A stretch of 64,000 nt of DNA, from NCBI RefSeq assembly GCF_003664185.1, contig NZ_RCCS01000006.1, positions 248,001 through 312,000 of the forward strand, given 5' to 3'. The translations under genes were made by a program, and so were the position numbers. This document shows positions 6,732 through 21,595 of the stretch, in pieces. The notes under the pieces were generated by a model that saw nothing but the letters and a program-made list of their open reading frames with translations, ran no database searches and was not told the origin of the DNA. The first letter of the stretch is position 1. Each line of letters starts with the position of its first letter. This DNA is from Tenacibaculum discolor (GTDB lineage Bacteria > Bacteroidota > Bacteroidia > Flavobacteriales > Flavobacteriaceae).

Positions 6732-7895
6732 TTACAGGCGTACAAATCCACCTGTAGAATTTTGAAGAAAAGACATAGACAACTGTTTTTCGATTGAAGT
6801 TTTTTGATTTTTTAGTTGTGAAGATATTACAACCTCTTTTTCTTCAGTCGTATAAGTGTATTGTCTAGTTAGTCGGTCATACTCTTTTTGCATGATTGTA
6901 CGAGGTTGTATGTTTCCATTTCTTAATTGAAACCATTCTTTTATATCACGCCATAAATTACGTGTTCTTTTACTAATAACATCAAAAGATTTACCAACCC
7001 AATGGGCAAAAAATTCATCACATACAACTTGTTTAAAATCGTATTTATTAATCAATTCAATAATTTTATAAAAATATGTTTCGCCCTCTGCATATCTAGG
7101 ATAATCAAGTTTTTTAGTTGCATTAGCACACCCCCAAATTTTGCCTATTATAGCACGTTTTCCAAATTCTCTTTTAGTCATATACTTGATTATGTAATTG
7201 CCTATATTTTTCAATTTACGCCCCTTTTTGTCCTTTTTTAAGCTATGAACGTCTATTGTATTAGGGTTTCTATCTCCGTGCTTTTCTTGGTATTTATCAA
7301 TATATCCAAGCTTGTCAAGTTGTTTGTTCCATAAGTGCCTGTGTACCGTCCAATCTATCCATCTATCTATTAACAAATGAAAATGGATGTTACCATTTTT
7401 CTGCGCTTCGGCTTTCCATACATAATGCTTTACATTATATGTTTTTTGTAAATTTTCAATATATCTCGTTTGCGCTTTTCGAAGTTCTTTGTCTGAATGA
7501 AATTGCTTTGCAGGTAGTGTCAACGTTACAAATGTTGCATATTGCTGTGTCTTATAATCTACATTTCTATCTCTAGAAAAGAATACAGTTGACAACATAC
7601 ATTCAATTGTTTTACGACACTTTTTAACCTGACTTTCCGAAAGTGTCCCTAAATCCTTTATTTGCTTGCCTTTTTTAGCCATTATCATTTGATGTAATTG
7701 ATGTTTAAACTCAATTTTATCAACTACATTCAAACTATTTTGTCTTGTGAGTTTCTTTATAGCTTCTGAATAAGGCGTTTTTGCATTTTGTTTTAAACTA
7801 GAAGTATCGCCATTTCTTGAAAATGACAGATAGCTGACATCATAAAATTGTGTCAGTCCGTTATTTTTTACAATAAAGGTCGCAGGAGCGTTCAT
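6732..7895 (-). CDS. rep: Rolling-circle replication initiator (HUH endonuclease, Rep)
   Basis: A 387-residue nicking-joining enzyme that starts rolling-circle replication of the phage genome. Three motifs are in order: FVTLTLP (122-128), the metal-binding HUH as H171-F-H173 within GNIHFHLLID, and the catalytic tyrosine motif NYIIKYMTK with Y234 and Y238. Two tyrosines four residues apart recall phiX174 gpA-type and ssDNA-phage Reps, which cut and rejoin alternately. No helicase domain. The promoter region upstream (7896-8028) contains a terminator hairpin. Strong evidence that the element replicates as circular DNA with a single-stranded stage. Confidence 0.9.
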   Translation of the reverse strand: MNAPATFIVKNNGLTQFYDVSYLSFSRNGDTSSLKQNAKTPYSEAIKKLTRQNSLNVVDKIEFKHQLHQMIMAKKGKQIKDLGTLSESQVKKCRKTIECMLSTVFFSRDRNVDYKTQQYATFVTLTLPAKQFHSDKELRKAQTRYIENLQKTYNVKHYVWKAEAQKNGNIHFHLLIDRWIDWTVHRHLWNKQLDKLGYIDKYQEKHGDRNPNTIDVHSLKKDKKGRKLKNIGNYIIKYMTKREFGKRAIIGKIWGCANATKKLDYPRYAEGETYFYKIIELINKYDFKQVVCDEFFAHWVGKSFDVISKRTRNLWRDIKEWFQLRNGNIQPRTIMQKEYDRLTRQYTYTTEEKEVVISSQLKNQKTSIEKQLSMSFLQNSTGGFVRL

Positions 7896-8322: not shown

Positions 8323-8558
8323 TATTTATCAAGTTTGTTAAATTCAGAAAGCAAAAAAGACAATTCCTCTAACTTACCCTCCATTTGAAGAAGCAAATCT
8401 TGACGAGTACAAGACTTTCTATATGAACTATCAAAAAGAAAATTACTAGCATGCACAAGAGGCATAGGGTCACAATAGAAATTATAACCAGAATCCTTTT
8501 TTATAGTTTTATCTAAAGCTGTTATAGCTATAAGTATATTTTTTGAAGTATTTCCCAT
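8322..8558 (-). CDS. Small helical phage protein, unknown
   Basis: Seventy-eight residues, soluble, helical, with an acidic coiled-coil-like C-terminus (LLLQMEGKLEELSFLLSEF). No recognised family. It is coupled to the next gene (stop and start overlap) and lies three bases after the stop of the membrane protein gene upstream, so it belongs to the early operon 9555-8029. Confidence 0.6.
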   Translation of the reverse strand: MGNTSKNILIAITALDKTIKKDSGYNFYCDPMPLVHASNFLFDSSYRKSCTRQDLLLQMEGKLEELSFLLSEFNKLDK

Positions 8559-12891: not shown

Positions 12892-13992
12892 CTACTTATT
12901 GGTAACAAATATTTCTCTCAACTGTTTAATTACGTTTCCGTTTCCAGTAACTGTAATTTCTCCAATTTTATCAGCTATTTTCTCCACATACTCCATTTCT
13001 TTTAATTTAAACAACATTTCGTTGTCTTCCATTAATTTAGCAGTATTTAATAAGCTTCTTGTAGATGCTGTTTCTTCTCTTCTGGTAATAATATTTGCTT
13101 GGGCTTTCTTTTGTGCTACCAATACCTGATTCATGATTTCTTTCATTTCTCCTGGTAAAATAACATCTCTAATTCCGCAACCTTGAATTACTACACCTAA
13201 TTTTTCAGCATTCATTTTTGTTTCTTCAAAAACTGCTATAGAAACATCCTCTTTATTGGCTAATAATTCATCTAATGTGTAGTGTCCTACATATTTTCTC
13301 AATGCCAATTGCATGTTTACATACAATTGTTTTTCATAATCTTTATTAGCTAACAACGCTTTTTCAATATCAGTTACTTTGTATTGCGTATAAAAGTTAA
13401 CTCTAACATTTGCTTTGTCTTTGGTTAACAATTCCTGACCTGCAACTTCTAATTGCAATTGTCTGGTATCTACTTTCGCTATTTTAATAGTTGTCTCATT
13501 TTTCCAAAACCTATACGTCCCTCCTACCAATGTTTTTTGATAGGTATCATTCACTAACAATATAGCTTTTTCGTAGGCGGCAACTTCAAAAGTCCTAACA
13601 TATTTGCTCACTTCATAATTATTGAATAAAGATGTATCTACTTTTTCAGTAATTTCAATCTTGCTTATATCTATTTTTTGAAAGGTTCTAGTAATAAATC
13701 CTTTCCAGAAAACGTGTCTTCCCGCATTTAAAACTCTTTGAAAGTTGTTGTTTTCGTACATAAAAACTAACTCGTTGTCTTGTACTTCAACAACTTCTAA
13801 CATTTCTGCTAAAGTTGTGTCTTGTAACAATACTTCTAAAGCTACTGATGTATAAAAATCTTTTGTTAAATCATATACTGCTACTGTTTGATTAAATCCT
13901 AACCAATGTGTACCCGCTTTGATTACTTTTATGTAATCTCCTTTTTTAAATACTAATCCTACTTTTCCTTGATTAATTGTTATTCTTTTCAT
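12892..13992 (-). CDS. SPFH/slipin-type protein without a membrane span
   Basis: A 366-residue prohibitin/stomatin-fold protein. The N-terminal 90 residues (GKVGLVFKKGDYIKVIKAG) and the next repeat (NELVFMYENNNFQRVLNAG) look like two copies of the same small beta unit, a third beginning near 140 (EKAILLVNDTYQKTLVGGTY). The SPFH core covers about 150-300 (VDTRQLQLEVAGQELLTKD, GVVIQGCGIRDVILPGEM), followed by a helical tail. Unlike ordinary stomatins it has no hydrophobic anchor. Proteins of this type are, as I recall, found beside bacterial RNA-repair operons. It is the first coding sequence downstream of the permuted tRNA-like RNA, with no clear terminator between. Confidence 0.85.
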   Translation of the reverse strand: MKRITINQGKVGLVFKKGDYIKVIKAGTHWLGFNQTVAVYDLTKDFYTSVALEVLLQDTTLAEMLEVVEVQDNELVFMYENNNFQRVLNAGRHVFWKGFITRTFQKIDISKIEITEKVDTSLFNNYEVSKYVRTFEVAAYEKAILLVNDTYQKTLVGGTYRFWKNETTIKIAKVDTRQLQLEVAGQELLTKDKANVRVNFYTQYKVTDIEKALLANKDYEKQLYVNMQLALRKYVGHYTLDELLANKEDVSIAVFEETKMNAEKLGVVIQGCGIRDVILPGEMKEIMNQVLVAQKKAQANIITRREETASTRSLLNTAKLMEDNEMLFKLKEMEYVEKIADKIGEITVTGNGNVIKQLREIFVTNK

Positions 13993-14302
13993 AATCTTTT
14001 TGTTTTTAATTATTTATACGTTGTTTTCTCACCATGGAGAAATTTGTTTGTTTTTGTAAAAAGTATTGAATGTTAATGCTTATAAGCCTACGGAAATAAT
14101 AAGATTGCATAGCTTTTGTATTGTTGTTTACTACATGGGTTATACTAATTAATACTATAACTGACATACTAAAGTTCAATACACTGTTTATGTAATGGTT
14201 ATTATTTCAAAGTACGTTTATAAGTGTTTATTTAAAAACTCATTAAACATTCAACACTTTTGGTTCATCAGTTTTACAAGGTGATGAGCTTTCTTAAATA
14301 AT
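13993..14302 (-). other. Region between the tRNA-like array and the SPFH gene
   Basis: About 310 bp, AT-rich. On the minus strand a hairpin GCTCATCA...TGATGAAC lies at 14265-14289, just after module 3, and AAGTGTT/AACACTT arms (26-nt loop) follow. Neither has a clear T run, so the RNA may read into the SPFH gene, making the tRNA-like array part of a long mRNA leader. I see no gene here. Confidence 0.4.
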
Positions 14303-14377
14303 CTACGTTAACAGCGTAGTGCTCTACCAACTGAGCTACAAAACTCCTTTAGAAGTTTTGACAGGACTCGAACCTGT
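14303..14377 (-). ncRNA. Permuted tRNA-like module 3 (Asn-type, anticodon GUU)
   Basis: Reading the minus strand 5' to 3': T-arm ACAGG-TTCGAGT-CCTGT (14377-14361); acceptor strand CAAAACT (14360-14354) extended by TC, a TAAA loop (14351-14348), GG, and the second acceptor strand AGTTTTG (14345-14339); TA; D-arm GCTC-AGTTGGTA-GAGC (14336-14321); A; anticodon arm CTACG-CTGTTAA-CGTAG (14319-14303), anticodon GTT with T33. All canonical tRNA-Asn parts are present but in permuted order, with the acceptor stem sealed so that no CCA end exists. All four arms pair perfectly apart from a G-T pair in the extra acceptor pairs. Confidence 0.8.
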
Positions 14378-14385
14378 GCAAAAAA

Positions 14386-14475
14386 CAGACGTGACTGGTC
14401 TGAATTCACTAGAACCTAAAACTAGCGCGTCTACCGTTCCGCCATATCCTTTCGGATAGTGGGACTCGAACCCAC
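14386..14475 (-). ncRNA. Permuted tRNA-like module 2 (Leu-type, anticodon UAG, plus GUC-loop hairpin)
   Basis: Minus strand: T-arm GTGGG-TTCGAGT-CCCAC (14475-14459); acceptor TATCC (14458-14454), GAAA tetraloop, GGATA (14449-14445); TG; Leu-type D-arm GCGGAACGGTAGACGC (14442-14427); G; anticodon arm CTAGT-TTTAGGT-TCTAG (14425-14409) with anticodon TAG and one T-T mismatch next to the loop. A further hairpin follows, CAGAC-CAGTCAC-GTCTG (14402-14386): 5-bp stem and 7-nt loop, either the Leu variable arm or an anticodon-like arm resembling tRNA-Asp (GTC) but lacking T33. The D-arm is nearly the same as in the true tRNA-Leu at 54212. Confidence 0.75.
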
Positions 14476-14484
14476 ACGAATTTT

Positions 14485-14554
14485 CTCTATTGCTTTAACC
14501 TGGCTTAGCTACATAACTTTCGTTATGGCAGGATTCGAACCTGCGTACATAGAG
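14485..14554 (-). ncRNA. Permuted tRNA-like module 1 with open anticodon loop
   Basis: Minus strand: CTCTAT (14554-14549), GTAC, T-arm GCAGG-TTCGAAT-CCTGC (14544-14528), acceptor CATAAC (14527-14522), GAAA, GTTATG (14517-14512), TA, D-arm GCTAAGCCAGGTTAAAGC (14509-14492), A, ATAGAG (14490-14485). The outer strands CTCTAT and ATAGAG pair and form the anticodon stem, so here the module's ends fall inside the anticodon loop. The amino-acid identity is lost because the anticodon itself is not present. A hairpin GATTATTT/AAATAATC (14579-14558) lies directly upstream. Confidence 0.75.
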
Positions 14555-14784
14555 TGAGATTATTTTTTGGTAAATAATCAAAACCTTCAAGACTAGTTGC
14601 ATATACAGTTCTAATACATTTACTGTAAGAATGTATACAATGGTGCTATACAGAAACACGCAACAAGACTTGCTTGATATTTTTATCTATAATATGTAAA
14701 TGAACTTTTATAGCTACCTCACTATACCCTTTGTTATAATGAGGTTCTCTTAGCATTTTATCTCTCTTCAAATATCTTTTTCAT

Positions 14785-14837: not shown

Positions 14838-15353
14838 TTATTCTTGCTTTTTCTTACTTTTTTTCTTCTTTTTCTTAGGAAGCTTATCCTTTACACGTTC
14901 TATATGTTCTCTTACAGTTCGCATATAATCACTATTATACGTGTGCTTTTTAGCAAGGTTTAAAGTTTGTAATGATTTTTTATACGCTTCTTTCTGTTCA
15001 TATAATTGGGCTTTTCCTATATATAAAATTGCTTTGTCGGAACCTTTTACGGTTAATGCAAAATCGATGAATCGTTCAGCTTCTTCATAGTCTTCATTCC
15101 ATAATAACACATTAATGTAATTCGGATATACGTTAAAAGCATACATGTTTTCTGCTAAAGCTTCTGTATAATACAGTTTTGCTTTTTCAAAATCACCTAA
15201 GTGTTCTGCGTAAATGCGTCCCATTAAGCACAACGCTACTACATTTTTTTCTTCATACGCCAAAGCATATGTTAATGCCTCCATTGTTTCTTCTAATTCA
15301 TAAGGAAAAGCATCTAATGCTTTAAATATGTAATTGTTTGCTAATGTTTTCAT
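14838..15353 (-). CDS. TPR protein with lysine-rich tail, in the prfH operon
   Basis: One hundred and seventy-one residues of tetratricopeptide repeats (about 20-150: NVVALCLMGRIYAEHLGDFE, YPNYINVLLWNEDYEEAERF, AILYIGKAQLYEQKEAYKKS), then a very basic tail KLPKKKKKKSKKKQE. The repeats give protein contacts; the tail should bind RNA or the ribosome. It starts four bases after the prfH stop and is surely cotranscribed, so it probably assists PrfH or RtcB on damaged ribosomes or tRNA. No catalytic motif. Confidence 0.8.
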   Translation of the reverse strand: MKTLANNYIFKALDAFPYELEETMEALTYALAYEEKNVVALCLMGRIYAEHLGDFEKAKLYYTEALAENMYAFNVYPNYINVLLWNEDYEEAERFIDFALTVKGSDKAILYIGKAQLYEQKEAYKKSLQTLNLAKKHTYNSDYMRTVREHIERVKDKLPKKKKKKSKKKQE

Positions 15354-15357
15354 CTTA

Positions 15358-16047
15358 TTATAATTGTTTACGCAAATCGCTTTTTAATTGATTACGTGTT
15401 GTTTTAAATCTTTTTTTGTTGTTTTTAACTTTAAAATCAGTTCCTACAAATACTTTTACTGGATTTCCTCTTTCTAAGTCTAAATGGTTTTCCCATTCTT
15501 GTTTTATGGTGTTTTGTAATTGATTTATATTATGATTTGCTATCAAGGTTTTTAAACGTTGTACAGCTATTTTTTTATTTTGATGCTGTGAACGACTTTC
15601 TGAAACCAATATTTGAATTCCTGTTGTGCTATGTTTTGCTCGTACAGCAGAACTTACTTTATTTACATGTTGTCCACCAGGTCCAGAACTTCTAATTGCC
15701 TGAAACTCGATGTCTTTTTCTTGTATGGTTAACTCATTGTTATATTCCAATTCAAAACAACCAATAAACCAGTTTTTACGTTTATGGTATTTTCTAAAGG
15801 TTGATTTTCCTATCCATTGAATAGTGCCCATCCAATCTTTTAAAAATAAAGACAGGTTATTTCCTTTTAATTGAACACTTACTGATTGTATGGTTCCATT
15901 CTCTATTCCTTTTTCTTTATGAAGAATGTCATATATTATCTTATGTTCTACTACAGCTTTTATAAATGCTTTTAGCACTTTTGCTACTACCCAGCAGCAT
16001 TCTGAAGGTCCACGACCCGCTGTAAATTGTATTATTTTTATGTCCAT
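15358..16047 (-). CDS. prfH: Peptide chain release factor H (rescue of damaged ribosomes)
   Basis: A 229-residue class-I release factor homologue that lacks the stop-codon recognition domain. The catalytic GGQ is at 124-126 within RSSGPGGQHVNKVSSAVRA. The N-terminal domain (SECCWVVAKVLKAFIKAV, WMGTIQWIGKS, RKNWFIGCFEL) is diagnostic of PrfH rather than ArfB or RF2. PrfH with RtcB has been shown in E. coli to release peptides from ribosomes whose 16S rRNA was cut by colicin E3, allowing RtcB to reseal the rRNA. Here it lies downstream of rtcB, separated by a palindromic repeat. Confidence 0.95.
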   Translation of the reverse strand: MDIKIIQFTAGRGPSECCWVVAKVLKAFIKAVVEHKIIYDILHKEKGIENGTIQSVSVQLKGNNLSLFLKDWMGTIQWIGKSTFRKYHKRKNWFIGCFELEYNNELTIQEKDIEFQAIRSSGPGGQHVNKVSSAVRAKHSTTGIQILVSESRSQHQNKKIAVQRLKTLIANHNINQLQNTIKQEWENHLDLERGNPVKVFVGTDFKVKNNKKRFKTTRNQLKSDLRKQL

Positions 16048-16158: not shown

Positions 16159-17550
16159 TTACTTATCCATTCGTACAATTTTCGGGGCAAAGGTTCCTAA
16201 TACTTCAACTAATTCTTCCTGATTTGCCATTACTTTTTTGATATTTTTATAGGCCATTGGAGCTTCATCTACTCCACCTCCAATGAGCGTAACTTCATTC
16301 ATTTTTAACTGATGCTTAATATCACTTTTGGTAAATTTCTCTTTACACTTTCTTCTTGAATGCTTTCTTCCTGCTCCGTGTGATGCCGATTGTAAACTCT
16401 CTTGGTTTCCTAAACCTCTAACAATGTATCCTGGTGCAGTCATAGATCCCGGAATTATACCTAATATTCCTTTATTAGCGGGTGTTGCTCCTTTTCTATG
16501 TACAATACGCTCAATTCCATTTACTTGTTCTTTCCACGCAAAATTGTGATGATTTTCAACCATAGTTAATGGTTTTACACCTAATAATTTTGCTATTCGT
16601 TTATGAATATTATCATGACATGCTTTTGCATAATCACCTGCTAAATTCATTGCTAACCAATATTCTTGTCCGTCGTGCGTATTTAAATCTAACCATGCTA
16701 AATGTTGTACGTTTTTAGGTAACGGACATTGTTTACTTGCTAAATAGGTATAGTGTTTTGCAATGTTTGCTCCCAATCCACGTGATCCACTATGCGTTAA
16801 TAAGCCCACATATTCCCCTACAGGTACATTAAATTCATTATTTTCATCTGATATGGTTACCTTTCCGAACTCTACAAAGTGATTTCCACCTCCTGAGGTT
16901 CCTAATTGATTATATGCTTTTACTTTTAACCGTTTTAGTAAAGGGATATCTTGAAATTCACTACGTTCAAAAATTTCATGATCTTGCTTTTTATCATGTG
17001 TTTCATACATTCCAAACTTGGTATGTTCTTTCAATATATTTTCTAATTGATGTTGCTTACCTTTTAAATAAGAAGCTTTCATCGGAAAAATACTCAATGC
17101 CATTCTACAGCCAATATCTACTCCTACACCATACGGAATTACTGAATTTTCTGTAGCAAGTACGCCACCTATAGGTAATCCGTACCCTGAATGTGCATCT
17201 GGCATTAAAGCTCCTTGTACTGCTATAGGTAATTTTAAAGCATCGTATAACTGAAACTTCGCTTGTTCATCAATTTCATTTTCTCCATAAATTGAAAACG
17301 AAGCTCTTGTATTTCTTAACTGATGCATTTTAATTTCAACAGGCTTGGTTAAACCTTCAGCAACTTTACCCCAAATAGCATTTCCTTTATATTTTTCTGG
17401 ATAAAGCAGTACTTGTTTCGCTTCTTCTAAAATGCGTTCTTTTTTTTCTTTTTTTCTATATCGGTTAATTTGCCCTAAGGCAATATTTATACTATTGTTT
17501 TTTGGAAAGCCTAATTTGATTAGATCTTTTCCTTTTAGTTTATTTCCCAT
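16159..17550 (-). CDS. rtcB: RNA-splicing/repair ligase RtcB
   Basis: A 463-residue GTP- and Mn-dependent ligase joining RNA 3'-phosphate or 2',3'-cyclic phosphate ends to 5'-OH ends. Metal and nucleotide residues are in place: D145 and C148 in GVGVDIGCRM, H224 in GTSGGGNHFVEFG, H253 in THSGSRGLG, H334/H335 in VENHHNF, and the guanylylated H391 in SASHGAGRKHSR. Length is normal. Its substrates are the ends left by anticodon nucleases and rRNA-cutting toxins. Together with prfH, the TPR gene, the Pnkp-like phosphatase and the tRNA-like RNA it forms an RNA repair island. Confidence 0.96.
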   Translation of the reverse strand: MGNKLKGKDLIKLGFPKNNSINIALGQINRYRKKEKKERILEEAKQVLLYPEKYKGNAIWGKVAEGLTKPVEIKMHQLRNTRASFSIYGENEIDEQAKFQLYDALKLPIAVQGALMPDAHSGYGLPIGGVLATENSVIPYGVGVDIGCRMALSIFPMKASYLKGKQHQLENILKEHTKFGMYETHDKKQDHEIFERSEFQDIPLLKRLKVKAYNQLGTSGGGNHFVEFGKVTISDENNEFNVPVGEYVGLLTHSGSRGLGANIAKHYTYLASKQCPLPKNVQHLAWLDLNTHDGQEYWLAMNLAGDYAKACHDNIHKRIAKLLGVKPLTMVENHHNFAWKEQVNGIERIVHRKGATPANKGILGIIPGSMTAPGYIVRGLGNQESLQSASHGAGRKHSRRKCKEKFTKSDIKHQLKMNEVTLIGGGVDEAPMAYKNIKKVMANQEELVEVLGTFAPKIVRMDK

Positions 17551-18257: not shown

Positions 18258-18554
18258 CTATGGCATTGGTAATATCTCTACTACTATTCCATATACATTC
18301 TTAGTCCATCCGTTTATTCTTCCATGATTATTTCCTATTAGCAAACCTCTTTTATTGTTTTTTCCTTTTACAAGGTGCGTAAAACAGTTTCCACGAACTT
18401 TGCAATAAACAATATCGCCAACCTTACAATCTTCCCAGTTTATTGGTTTTAGTTTTACAGGTTGTTTAGATTTTAAAATAGGCAACATAGAATTACCTGG
18501 CTCTTTTGAAATAATGGTTTCTCCATTATTTAATTTTTGAATTTTCCAATTCAT
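18258..18554 (-). CDS. S24/S26-like mini-protein (LexA/signal-peptidase fold)
   Basis: Ninety-eight residues forming only the catalytic beta-fold of S24/S26 peptidases. GNSMLPIL (Ser22) matches the nucleophile motif; CKVGDIVYCKV matches the 'GDiv' strand; the base lysine may be K63 in HLVKGKNN; IGNNHGRINGWTKNVYGIVVEI is the usual C-terminal strand set. There is no DNA-binding domain and no membrane anchor, so it is neither a LexA repressor nor a secretory signal peptidase. It sits inside the RNA repair island, between the phosphatase and rtcB. Role unknown; perhaps a self-cleaving sensor. Confidence 0.7.
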   Translation of the reverse strand: MNWKIQKLNNGETIISKEPGNSMLPILKSKQPVKLKPINWEDCKVGDIVYCKVRGNCFTHLVKGKNNKRGLLIGNNHGRINGWTKNVYGIVVEILPMP

Positions 18555-18699: not shown

Positions 18700-19155
18700 T
18701 TAAAAATCACCATAAAATACTTGTAGGCAAGGTAGTTTTAATTCTTTTCTCCATAAATTAACCACCTGATTTCTATCATCTAAAACAAAATCAATAAAGT
18801 ACTTATGCTCTATTTTTCTTTTAAATACCTCTTCTTTAATAATCGCATCTTTCCTATTGTCTCTTGATTTACGCATCCATAGTGCATCATAAACTATTTC
18901 ATGCTTTTTTAACCAAGACTCTGTTTCTGGTTGATATTTAGCTTCTCTACCTGATAAAAGAAGTATTTTATATCCTAATTGTTGGTAATTCTTTACTAAA
19001 CTAACAATAGGTACATTAGGTAAATCTTGTTCACACCTACTTCCATCAAAAGGACTTCTGTTATTTATCAAAGATAAAGTTCCGTCTAAATCACAAATAA
19101 TAGCTTTTGGTAAAGCTTCATCTTGATTTCTATATTCATTTTTTAGTTTTTTCAT
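18700..19155 (-). CDS. T4-Pnkp-type polynucleotide 3'-phosphatase (HAD), stand-alone
   Basis: A 151-residue HAD phosphatase with the DxDGT motif at 22-26 (IICDLDGTLSLINNRSPFD), SGR at 68-70, a basic-acidic motif SRDNRKD at 97-103, and DDR at 126-128 with VVNLWR after it. The tail LQVFYGDF closely parallels the C-terminus of T4 polynucleotide kinase-phosphatase (...WQVASGDF). The kinase half is absent. Such domains remove 3'-phosphate or 2',3'-cyclic phosphate from RNA ends. It is transcribed from the 53-bp element shared with the tRNA-like RNA. RtcB needs the 3'-phosphate, so this enzyme may feed another ligase or keep RtcB in check. Confidence 0.85.
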   Translation of the reverse strand: MKKLKNEYRNQDEALPKAIICDLDGTLSLINNRSPFDGSRCEQDLPNVPIVSLVKNYQQLGYKILLLSGREAKYQPETESWLKKHEIVYDALWMRKSRDNRKDAIIKEEVFKRKIEHKYFIDFVLDDRNQVVNLWRKELKLPCLQVFYGDF

Positions 19156-19305: not shown

Positions 19306-20313
19306 ATGGCTTCTAATAAAAACGCCCTAATTCGATATAAAACAATTGATCAATGTCTTCGAAACACAATGCGTACTTGGACTTTGAATGATTTAATTGA
19401 TGCTTGTTCTGATGCTTTGTACGAATACGAAGGAAAAGATATTTATGTGAGTAAAAGAACCGTTCAGTTAGATATTCAATTGATGCGTAGTAATAAGTTA
19501 GGGTATAATGCTCCGATTGAAGTCTATCAACGTAAATATTACCGTTATGCTGAAGAAGGGTATTCTATTATGAATATTCCTGTGACTGAAAACGATGTGA
19601 AAGTGATGAATGATGCTATTCAAGTATTACGTCAGTTTAAAGACTTTTCTTTATTCAAAGAAATGGATGGAGTGCTACAACGTTTAGAAGATTCAGTATA
19701 CTCTTCTCAAAAAAACAATAGGGCTATTATTCATTTAGATAAAAACGAACAGCTAAAAGGCTTGTCTTTTATAGATCCTTTATACAATGCTATACAGGAA
19801 AAAAAAGTATTAAAGATAAATTATCAGTCTTTTAAAGCAGAAAAAGCTAGTACAATAACCTTGCATCCACAATTATTAAAGGAATTTAATAATAGGTGGT
19901 TTTTATTGGCACTCGTAAAAGGTAAAGAAACAACTTTAGCTTTAGATCGTATAAATTCTGTAGAGGAAGTTGAAAACACAACATATATAGATAAAGCTAT
20001 TAATGGTGATGTTTATTATAAAGATGTTGTTGGTGTAACAGTTTCAAACACTAAACCACAACGTATTGCTTTTTGGGTAGATAAATCAAATACTCCTTAT
20101 GTTATTACAAAACCTTTTCATAAATCTCAAAGGTTAATAAAAAACACAGATGACGGGGCTATTTTTAATATTTTAGTAATTCCTAATTATGAATTGGAAC
20201 GTTTAATTTTGGGTTTTGGTAATAGCATAGAAGTGTTAAAACCTGAAAAACTTAGAAAAAGAATGATTCAGAAACTTGAAGACTCTCTAAACAGATACAC
20301 TATTAAAAAGTAG
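19306..20313 (+). CDS. WYL-domain transcription regulator of the RNA repair island
   Basis: A 335-residue regulator. Residues 1-85 form a winged HTH (TLNDLIDACSDALYEYEGKD, VSKRTVQLDIQLMRSNKLG). The WYL domain (about 155-230) holds KINYQSFKAE, HPQLLKEFNNRWFLLAL and TTLALDRI, the typical ligand pocket. The C-terminal WCX extension ends in LGFGNSIEVLKPEKLRKRM. WYL domains sense nucleic-acid ligands in several known regulators (DriD, PafBC) and control phage-defence loci (BrxR, CapW). It is divergent from the phosphatase and probably reads a damage product such as a broken RNA end. Confidence 0.9.
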   Translation: MASNKNALIRYKTIDQCLRNTMRTWTLNDLIDACSDALYEYEGKDIYVSKRTVQLDIQLMRSNKLGYNAPIEVYQRKYYRYAEEGYSIMNIPVTENDVKVMNDAIQVLRQFKDFSLFKEMDGVLQRLEDSVYSSQKNNRAIIHLDKNEQLKGLSFIDPLYNAIQEKKVLKINYQSFKAEKASTITLHPQLLKEFNNRWFLLALVKGKETTLALDRINSVEEVENTTYIDKAINGDVYYKDVVGVTVSNTKPQRIAFWVDKSNTPYVITKPFHKSQRLIKNTDDGAIFNILVIPNYELERLILGFGNSIEVLKPEKLRKRMIQKLEDSLNRYTIKK

Positions 20314-20851: not shown

Positions 20852-21595
20852 ATGAACAAATTTACAATCCTTTTCGGCATTTTAGGTATATTTCTACTTG
20901 CTGGAATCCGTATAATTTTTGAGTATAAGCGAGCTATTAAATTTAGGTTTGGTAAATACATTAAAACCTTAAATCCTGGTCTTAGATGGATTATTCCATT
21001 TATTGAAACCATTCAAATTGTTGATATTCGGGTGATTACTTTTAATATAGATTCTCAAGAAGTAATGACCGAGGATAATGTGCCTTGTAGTATTGATGGA
21101 GTTGTTTTCTTTAAAATTTATGACCCTGAGCGTGCTGTTTTAGAGGTAGAAGAATACAAGTTTGCCATTACACAATTAGCACAAGCAGCACTTAGAGATG
21201 TTTGCGGTAAAGTTGAGTTGGATACCATACTTTCTAAGCGAGAAGAGATGGGAAAAAACATCAAGGAGATTGTAGAGTTGGAAACTAAAGAATGGGGAAT
21301 TGAAATAAATGATGTTAAAATAAAGGATATTCAATTACCTGAAAATATGCGTCGTATGATGGCGAATCAAGCTGAGGCTGAACGTTCTAGAAGAGCACGT
21401 ATTATTCTTGCGTTGGCTGAAGAACAGGCTGCTTCTAAACTTTTAGAAGCTGGTAAACTTATAGATCAATCTCCTTCTGCTATTAAACTACGTTTATATC
21501 AAACACTATCAAATATAGCAGCGGAGAAAAACTCAACAATTTTATTCCCTTTTCCTGAGGAAGTATTACCAACTAAAAAAAAGAAGTCTAAATAG
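20852..21595 (+). CDS. Slipin (stomatin-like SPFH membrane protein)
   Basis: A 247-residue stomatin homologue. A short membrane hairpin or span at residues 5-24 (ILFGILGIFLLAGIRIIFEY) is followed by the SPFH domain (25-190: FGKYIKTLNPGLRWIIPFIE, DNVPCSIDGVVFFKIYDPER, LPENMRRMMANQAEAERSRR) and a coiled tail with a KKKKSK end. It organises membrane microdomains and often partners a NfeD protease, but none is adjacent here. It is the second SPFH gene flanking the RNA repair island (the other at 12892). Followed by a 13-bp hairpin terminator. Confidence 0.92.
   Translation: MNKFTILFGILGIFLLAGIRIIFEYKRAIKFRFGKYIKTLNPGLRWIIPFIETIQIVDIRVITFNIDSQEVMTEDNVPCSIDGVVFFKIYDPERAVLEVEEYKFAITQLAQAALRDVCGKVELDTILSKREEMGKNIKEIVELETKEWGIEINDVKIKDIQLPENMRRMMANQAEAERSRRARIILALAEEQAASKLLEAGKLIDQSPSAIKLRLYQTLSNIAAEKNSTILFPFPEEVLPTKKKKSK

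Follow-up and report, generated by a model that had tools for sequence, protein, structure and literature searches.

This work presents a predicted noncoding RNA that is encoded directly upstream of a slipin gene in the window (the whole 64,000-nucleotide stretch of Tenacibaculum discolor DNA analyzed here). The RNA-encoding stretch runs on the minus strand from 14680 to about 14202, between a gene for a TPR protein and that for the slipin. It comprises a 5′ domain and three modules, each ordered T-arm, acceptor hairpin and D-arm, and on the sequence evidence these modules are rightly described as tRNA mimics in permuted order with sealed acceptors, rather than as tRNAs. Covariation supports the predicted fold, and the permuted order, the sealed ends and the linkage to slipin are all apparent from comparison of the sequences. 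We propose that the RNA is a slipin-partnered counterpart of Y RNA, namely, a slipin-bound scaffold with tRNA-shaped docking sites during tRNA damage, and give this proposal an even chance of being right.

The slipin gene (12892..13992, minus strand; Band_7/SPFH, PF01145, E = 2.7e-30) follows the RNA. On the other side, also on the minus strand, lie the TPR gene (14838..15353, assigned by domain match), prfH, encoding peptide release factor H (15358..16047; TIGR03072, 225.9 bits against a cut-off of 166.65), the RNA ligase gene rtcB (16159..17550; PF01139, E = 4.6e-81) and a gene for a HAD phosphatase of the PNKP phosphatase type (HAD_PNKP; 18700..19155; PF25109, E = 4.1e-50). A preliminary description of this DNA had placed rtcB, prfH and a 3′-phosphatase nearby, and the domain matches bear out all three. 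A gene for a WYL-domain regulator follows on the plus strand (19306..20313; PF13280, E = 4.9e-11, plus WCX), and past it, at 20852-21595 (plus), comes a gene for another SPFH protein, whose N terminus probably holds a membrane segment. The locus also encodes a 98-residue protein (18258-18554, minus) that faintly resembles signal peptidase (TIGR02228, below cut-off) and matched no Pfam family at an E value of 0.001. This protein is 84-93% identical across five prfH loci (L035, L036, L038, L045 and L052) and is better conserved than RtcB in each of them. Unlike many of its sister loci, the window's locus has no tRNA array detectable by ARAGORN.

Direct reading of the sequence places the three modules at 14554-14303 on the minus strand, as had been claimed. 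Their sealed acceptors read CATAAC-GAAA-GTTATG, TATCC-GAAA-GGATA and CAAAACTTC-TAAA-GGAGTTTTG. Module A (14485..14554, score 61.4 bits) consists of a T-arm (14544-14528), a sealed acceptor with a GAAA loop (14527-14512) and a D-arm (14511-14492). The half arm ATAGAG first described at its end is indeed there (14490-14485), but a partner strand, CTCTAT at 14554-14549, completes the stem; module A is therefore a permuted tRNA body shut at the anticodon stem. Module B (14409..14475, 51.7 bits) has its T-arm at 14475-14459, a GAAA-sealed acceptor at 14458-14445, a D-arm at 14444-14427 and a Leu-like UAG anticodon arm at 14425-14409. Module C (14303..14377, 62 bits) has its T-arm at 14377-14361, a TAAA-sealed acceptor at 14360-14339, a D-arm at 14338-14321 and an Asn-like GUU anticodon arm at 14319-14303. 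Both anticodon arms had been called canonical; both are present, but the UAG arm has a T-T mismatch adjoining its loop. The two modules differ in where they open: A at the anticodon stem, and C, which carries a full anticodon arm, in the variable region. Modules B and C are separated by a hairpin (14386..14402, CAGACCAGTCACGTCTG), which was listed as terminator-like. Among nine aligned loci, module B is an optional insert found only in the window, L032 and L033, and several loci carry an extra free hairpin after module C, often with the loop CTNAAAA. In L042, the mimic carries a natural insertion: its module A T-loop is split by a palindromic stretch (8480-8520).

The RNA is larger than the flagged modules, and the preliminary description had recognized neither the 5′ domain nor the connection to slipin nor the tRNA arrays present in sister loci. 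The 5′ domain, defined with a covariance model (R1), spans 14545..14680 and has 37 predicted pairs. Beyond module C, a 3′ hairpin (TCATC...GATGA, 14265..14287; alignment columns 471-474 with 489-492) shows a both-sided change in every pair in at least one of nine aligned sequences. A possible long-range closing helix would join UCAAG at 14677-14673, among the first bases of the RNA, to CUUGA near the 3′ end (14207..14211). It is paired in 9/9 sequences with one-sided changes only and is the weakest part of the predicted fold; by eye, a similar 3′ closing element occurs in most but not all of 40 loci. Folding of the window RNA gave a z score of −3.32, with 0 of 100 shuffles equally low.

ARAGORN called no tRNA at the window's locus. 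With Rfam at its own cut-offs, one match was obtained there, to the tRNA model (14269-14345, 40.7 bits), and that match rests on the last D-arm and anticodon arm together with a 3′ part that lacks a T-arm. In L033, L169, L185, L187 and L191, ARAGORN labels parts of the RNA as tRNAs (His, Met, Leu and Asn), and genome annotations may therefore misname it.

In order to gauge the permuted order, a script was run on 41 loci carrying the RNA. It returned 81 raw module candidates, of which 7 were spurious and left out, and the 74 kept came from 39 loci; L040, with the 5′ domain only, and L180, in which the module was mis-parsed, contributed none. Sixty-six of the 74 have a loop no longer than 10 nt and a stem of 5 bp or more; these were listed, and alignment A4 was built from 38 of them. 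Over the 74 modules, the four acceptor pairs adjoining the T-stem averaged 3.88 Watson-Crick pairs out of 4, compared to 1.44 upon shuffling (highest of 2,000 shuffles, 1.93). In 35 neighboring module pairs, the permuted order scored 3.89 and the ordinary order 0.89, which upholds the original claim that the acceptors pair in the permuted order only. Since the 74 modules were chosen by their own hairpins, an unselected count of T-arms provides the fair test: in 40 such RNAs, a hairpin of at least 5 bp lies directly 3′ of 74 of 84 T-arms. For T-arms in other parts of the fetched loci, the count is 44 of 223, and shuffling of the downstream sequence gives 18.9%. In 27 of 36 loci, the stem that closes module A is made up of five or more Watson-Crick pairs; upon shuffling, the number of such loci averages 13.5 and reaches 20 at most.

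Covariation of the stems in homologous loci had been named beforehand as a test, and it was found both in the modules and in the 5′ domain. In the 38-module alignment, 98.5% of cells are paired (66.7% when shuffled), covariation reaches 0.889 (0.259 shuffled and at most 0.183 when slid) and all 6 acceptor pairs show both-sided changes. The compensatory changes bear on the reading of the RNA as debris of a decayed tRNA cluster, for which one could cite that the window lacks the canonical array of its sister loci; we consider this scarcely conceivable and, in our view, ruled out by the covariation. Another conceivable reading is that the modules are permuted pre-tRNA genes, matured to working tRNAs by the neighboring RtcB. 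An RNA ligase gene does adjoin them, and algae and archaea possess permuted tRNA genes, in which, according to the excerpted source, the 3′ half precedes the 5′ half (PMC3978253). However, the acceptors are sealed, with stems of 4-9 bp and loops of 3-21 nt in which no conserved CCA was seen, module A has no anticodon, and the acceptor loops vary in both length and sequence, all of which makes this reading very improbable. The same variation disposes of the idea that sealing by GNRA loops is a trait of the family.

The distribution of the RNA was charted from both prfH and the 5′ domain. Relatives of prfH proper occur in 22 of 299 genomes of the window's family (21 at E < 1e-60 and one partial at 2e-38), and the remaining matches, at about 1e-20 or weaker, are in our reading RF1/RF2-like. 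Twenty of these prfH loci were fetched; 8 of them have at least 7 ordinary tRNA genes behind prfH, and in several, permuted modules stand at the end of the tRNA array. Probing with 44 bases from upstream of the window modules showed that the 5′ domain is conserved: besides the window, 9 of the 20 fetched loci have it, and it was found in 0 of 12 named loci. When the whole unit was aligned over nine loci, 42 of 89 predicted pairs had at least one both-sided compensatory change. With R1, the RNA was found in 41 of 397 family genomes and 37 of 237 genera; owing to the strict filters of this search, 41 of 397 is a lower bound. An alignment of 48 sequences of the 5′ domain has 93.4% of cells paired, a covariation of 0.471 (0.203 shuffled) and both-sided change in 28 of 37 pairs, figures that lean toward the model because the alignment was fitted to it. 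Outside this family, R1 matched the slipin loci L199 (96.8 bits) and L208 (95.3 bits), both from a second family, and, weakly, one locus of a third (L219, 23 bits). At L040, the 5′ domain stands alone (7548-7660), and the fetched stretch shows neither modules nor a slipin match after it.

Downstream of the RNA, 40 of the 41 loci encode a slipin relative on the same strand, with 612-935 nt from the first base of the RNA to the slipin match. Alignment A5 holds 29 of 39 slipins (38 relatives and the window's). The window's slipin has no strongly hydrophobic stretch (highest 19-residue hydropathy, 1.18), and its sequence and fold place it among stomatin/prohibitin/HflK-type proteins, which, going by PDB titles, are known as ring or cage formers. 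The position of the RNA in 40 of 41 loci is also what would be expected of a cis-acting leader, in which the RNA would sense free tRNA-binding enzymes and thereby control slipin expression. A conserved element between the RNA core and slipin (TTTCCGTA, 14089..14096, minus), with TTCCG invariant in a 9-sequence alignment, fits such a role. Yet the permuted tRNA-like domains of Ro60-linked Y RNAs act in trans, as far as the excerpts of two reports go (PMC7790460, PMC8394870), and we regard the leader as unlikely.

The setting in many loci combines RtcB or PrfH with tRNA arrays. Within the fetched stretches of the 41 loci, relatives of TPR are found in 33, of RtcB in 23, of WYL in 16 and of PrfH in 12; as these stretches extend to about 16 kb at most, absences of neighbors are not absolute. 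Some RtcB relatives in carrier loci are only 27-29% identical. Ordinary tRNAs lie upstream of the RNA in 32 loci, with at least five in 17, and 9 loci, including the window, have none. The arrays, in the same orientation and either upstream of the RNA or behind prfH, reach 17-18 tRNAs by ARAGORN per stretch (L034-L039, L041, L045, L052, L162-L166, L168-L171 and others), and in some loci, e.g., L172 and L178, the last tRNA directly abuts the RNA. In L165 (8622-9104, minus) and L177 (7014-7496, plus), an RNaseH_like gene (PF04308) replaces the TPR gene before the RNA.

Under the scaffold proposal, the 5′ domain would bind slipin, and the sealed permuted modules would present tRNA-shaped docking sites on the slipin-bound scaffold. 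There, they would hold tRNA-handling enzymes, be it RtcB, a nuclease such as PNPase or modification enzymes. Sealing of the acceptors would exclude the mimic from charging and translation, and the triggering stress would be tRNA damage, in parallel with Y RNA and Ro60. The anticodon arms invite a different reading, the main rival, which we entertain only tentatively: an unchargeable RNA with real anticodon loops could serve as a decoy or sensor that soaks up or reports anticodon nucleases. Modules B and C have such loops, and several relatives offer an additional, free-standing anticodon hairpin. An anticodon arm with a 5-bp stem and a 7-nt loop is found in 33 of 38 modules after module A (two of them, in L166 and L039, in shifted register). 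Among these 33 arms, 30 have U33 and 32 have a purine at position 37, while the most variable loop positions are those of the anticodon itself, most commonly UUU (9), GUU (6) and UAG (5). Spare tRNAs, RtcB and PrfH within the loci would suit a decoy as well, and YrlA has been proposed as a competitive inhibitor in the excerpted account (PMC7790460). On the other hand, module A is devoid of an anticodon loop, L177, L184, L185 and L187 have lost the arm or show it in altered form, and none was found in the L190 module. The same excerpts report that no YrlA fragments were detected upon tRNA cleavage (PMC7790460), and a decoy would need neither the conserved 5′ domain nor the link to slipin.

The scaffold proposal draws on bacterial Y RNAs, for which the following is taken from excerpts of the respective reports. 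The tRNA-like domain of these RNAs is a circular permutation of tRNA (PMC11472068); Salmonella YrlA sits with Ro60 in an rsr-yrlBA-rtcBA operon (PMC7790460); and Y RNA is a substrate of TruB and DusA and a binder of PNPase (PMC8394870). The initial view that nothing alike was known beside RNA-repair genes consequently does not stand, YrlA being both permuted and tRNA-like in such an operon. The YrlA model (RF02553) matches the window at 14467-14571 (31.9 bits, model positions 1-114) and at 14321-14378 (33.4 bits, positions 30-81), both below the gathering cut-off of 69. YrlA is further marked by a Ro60 gene in the genome, mostly next to it, and by attachment to Ro60 via a basal stem. Ro60 (TROVE) had no match in the window's own genome and none in 39 of the 41 carriers of the RNA. 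In the other two (loci L177 and L191; genomes G353 and G079), Ro60 lies just behind slipin, and slipin and Ro60 are therefore not strict alternatives. The L177 gene encodes TROVE plus a Ro60-type vWA domain.

A module model, R2, was run over 395 genomes of the phylum. It proved not to be specific; its best 30 loci were checked individually. Of these, 14 have sealed modules with slipin, 12 have sealed modules without slipin and 4 resemble ordinary tRNA junctions. Seven of the 12 sealed loci without slipin adjoin an RtcB relative. Ro60 is present in 11 of the 12 corresponding genomes, some of the matches being weak (G614, G487 and G596), and was not found in G720. It was found in none of four slipin-type genomes of other families (G659, G688, G681 and G700). 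YrlA was then scanned against 16 loci, namely, 13 of the 30 module-search loci and 3 R1 carriers. Eight of the 11 Ro60-linked loci were thus scanned and scored 36 to 73 bits, with L211 alone above the cut-off; slipin-linked loci scored up to 44 bits (L134), and the two groups are not separable by these scores. L211 is a tandem Y RNA array, with four tandem sealed permuted modules adjoining an RtcB relative and five YrlA matches, two of them above the cut-off. In G720, L214 scores 70.2 bits, above the Rfam cut-off, and adjoins an RtcB relative. R1 gave no match to the 5′ domain in the YrlA-type loci, in the slipin locus L201 or in five plasmid loci (L193-L197); given this result for the YrlA-type loci, kinship with YrlA is unsupported beyond shared tRNA mimicry.

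Nine plasmid records were found to hold a full-length slipin relative, and five of these, from five other genera, were opened (L193-L197). In all five, a tRNA-like sequence lies within about 350 nt upstream of slipin. The Subdoligranulum locus (L193) has a T-arm, a sealed hairpin and a D-arm-like stretch before slipin, and those of Citrobacter and an E. coli (L194 and L197) have a T-arm and then a hairpin, whereas Photobacterium and Burkholderia (L195 and L196) have tRNA-likes in ordinary order (L195:4665-4806 and L196:4666-4738), with a GAAA loop replacing the anticodon loop in Burkholderia. From these five loci, tRNA-like sequence before slipin extends beyond the phylum and takes more than one form, the sealed permuted tandem among them.

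Taken together, the scaffold proposal is favored by compensatory change in both modules and 5′ domain, by the same-strand slipin after 40 of 41 RNAs, by the R1 slipin loci in other families, by the 14 module-search loci beside slipin and the Ro60 genes of 11 of the 12 genomes with sealed modules but no slipin, by the lack of a Ro60 match in most carriers, by plasmid slipin loci with tRNA-likes and by the kinship of slipin with ring or cage formers. Against it stand the YrlA scores, which do not separate the groups, the presence of RtcB in only 23 of 41 stretches, the ordinary order of the tRNA-likes in 2 of 5 slipin loci outside the phylum (L195 and L196), Ro60 beside slipin in L177 and L191, the lack of an R1 match in YrlA-type loci and the anticodon arms of 33 of 38 modules, which exceed the needs of a tether. 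Decoy, sensor and scaffold are indistinguishable by sequence alone; in our judgment, the scaffold fits best. If it is true, there is a second version of Y RNA, that is, a tRNA-shaped RNA bringing enzymes to a protein ring, in which slipin replaces Ro60; this version would occur in roughly one genome in ten of the window's family (41 of 397), tied in many loci to spare-tRNA arrays and an RNA ligase. SPFH proteins would gain an RNA partner, tRNA-like sequences missed or called tRNAs in annotation would be explained, and the function of bacterial tRNA mimics would become testable in culturable bacteria, with the variable anticodon of the module arms as a handle for separating decoy from scaffold.

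With YrlA, the window RNA shares the permuted order of T-arm, acceptor hairpin and D-arm, the opening at the anticodon stem (module A) and a position beside rtcB. It differs in that its partner gene is slipin (39 of 41 carriers lack a Ro60 match), in its tandem modules, true anticodon arms and own 5′ domain and in being joined to tRNA arrays in many loci. An SPFH gene is also part of the rtc locus of Pseudomonas aeruginosa, according to an excerpt (PMC13086221). In Anabaena PCC 7120, a trn operon of 26 tRNAs, rtcB and slipin are under one repressor, TrcR, and rise under translation stress, so the excerpted report (PMC10272220). The likeness lies in stress-induced spare tRNAs combined with RtcB and slipin; in Anabaena, however, the genes are apart, the repressor is of the RHH family and the excerpts report no sealed permuted RNA (PMC10272220). 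The permuted tRNA genes of algae and archaea, as excerpted, mature to working tRNAs, unlike the window modules (PMC3978253). In the literature on slipin, RtcB, tRNA arrays and permuted tRNA, as far as its accessible portions extend, we found no published description of this RNA.

The eukaryotic vault particle consists of MVP, vault RNA and TEP1, which has a TROVE domain. MVP itself has tandem beta repeats, an SPFH-like shoulder and a cap helix. The slipin locus seems similar in that a noncoding RNA accompanies an SPFH-like protein, whose architecture may likewise include beta repeats and a long helix, with a Ro60 gene nearby in 2 of 41 loci, but the resemblance lies mainly in the SPFH part, and the slipin repeats alone match MVP weakly. 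It is conceivable, albeit rather improbable, that a vault-like particle is formed, in which a slipin that is soluble, forms cages and has tandem SPFH-type beta repeats would be packaged with the large RNA of sealed mimics, joined in some lineages by Ro60. Such a particle would be built under tRNA attack and would capture nucleases as well as broken tRNAs, with fresh tRNAs supplied by the adjoining array. The abstract of Burroughs and Aravind (2016) reportedly mentions a “novel tRNA-like molecule” as the RNA cognate to SPFH/Band-7 modules. By that description, both cases feature a tRNA-like RNA beside a Band-7 gene in an RNA-repair locus, and the two RNAs are probably of the same broad kind. 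Possibly new here are the arrangement of sealed permuted modules in tandem, with anticodon arms and a 5′ domain, the association with tRNA arrays and the contrast between slipin and Ro60 as partners.
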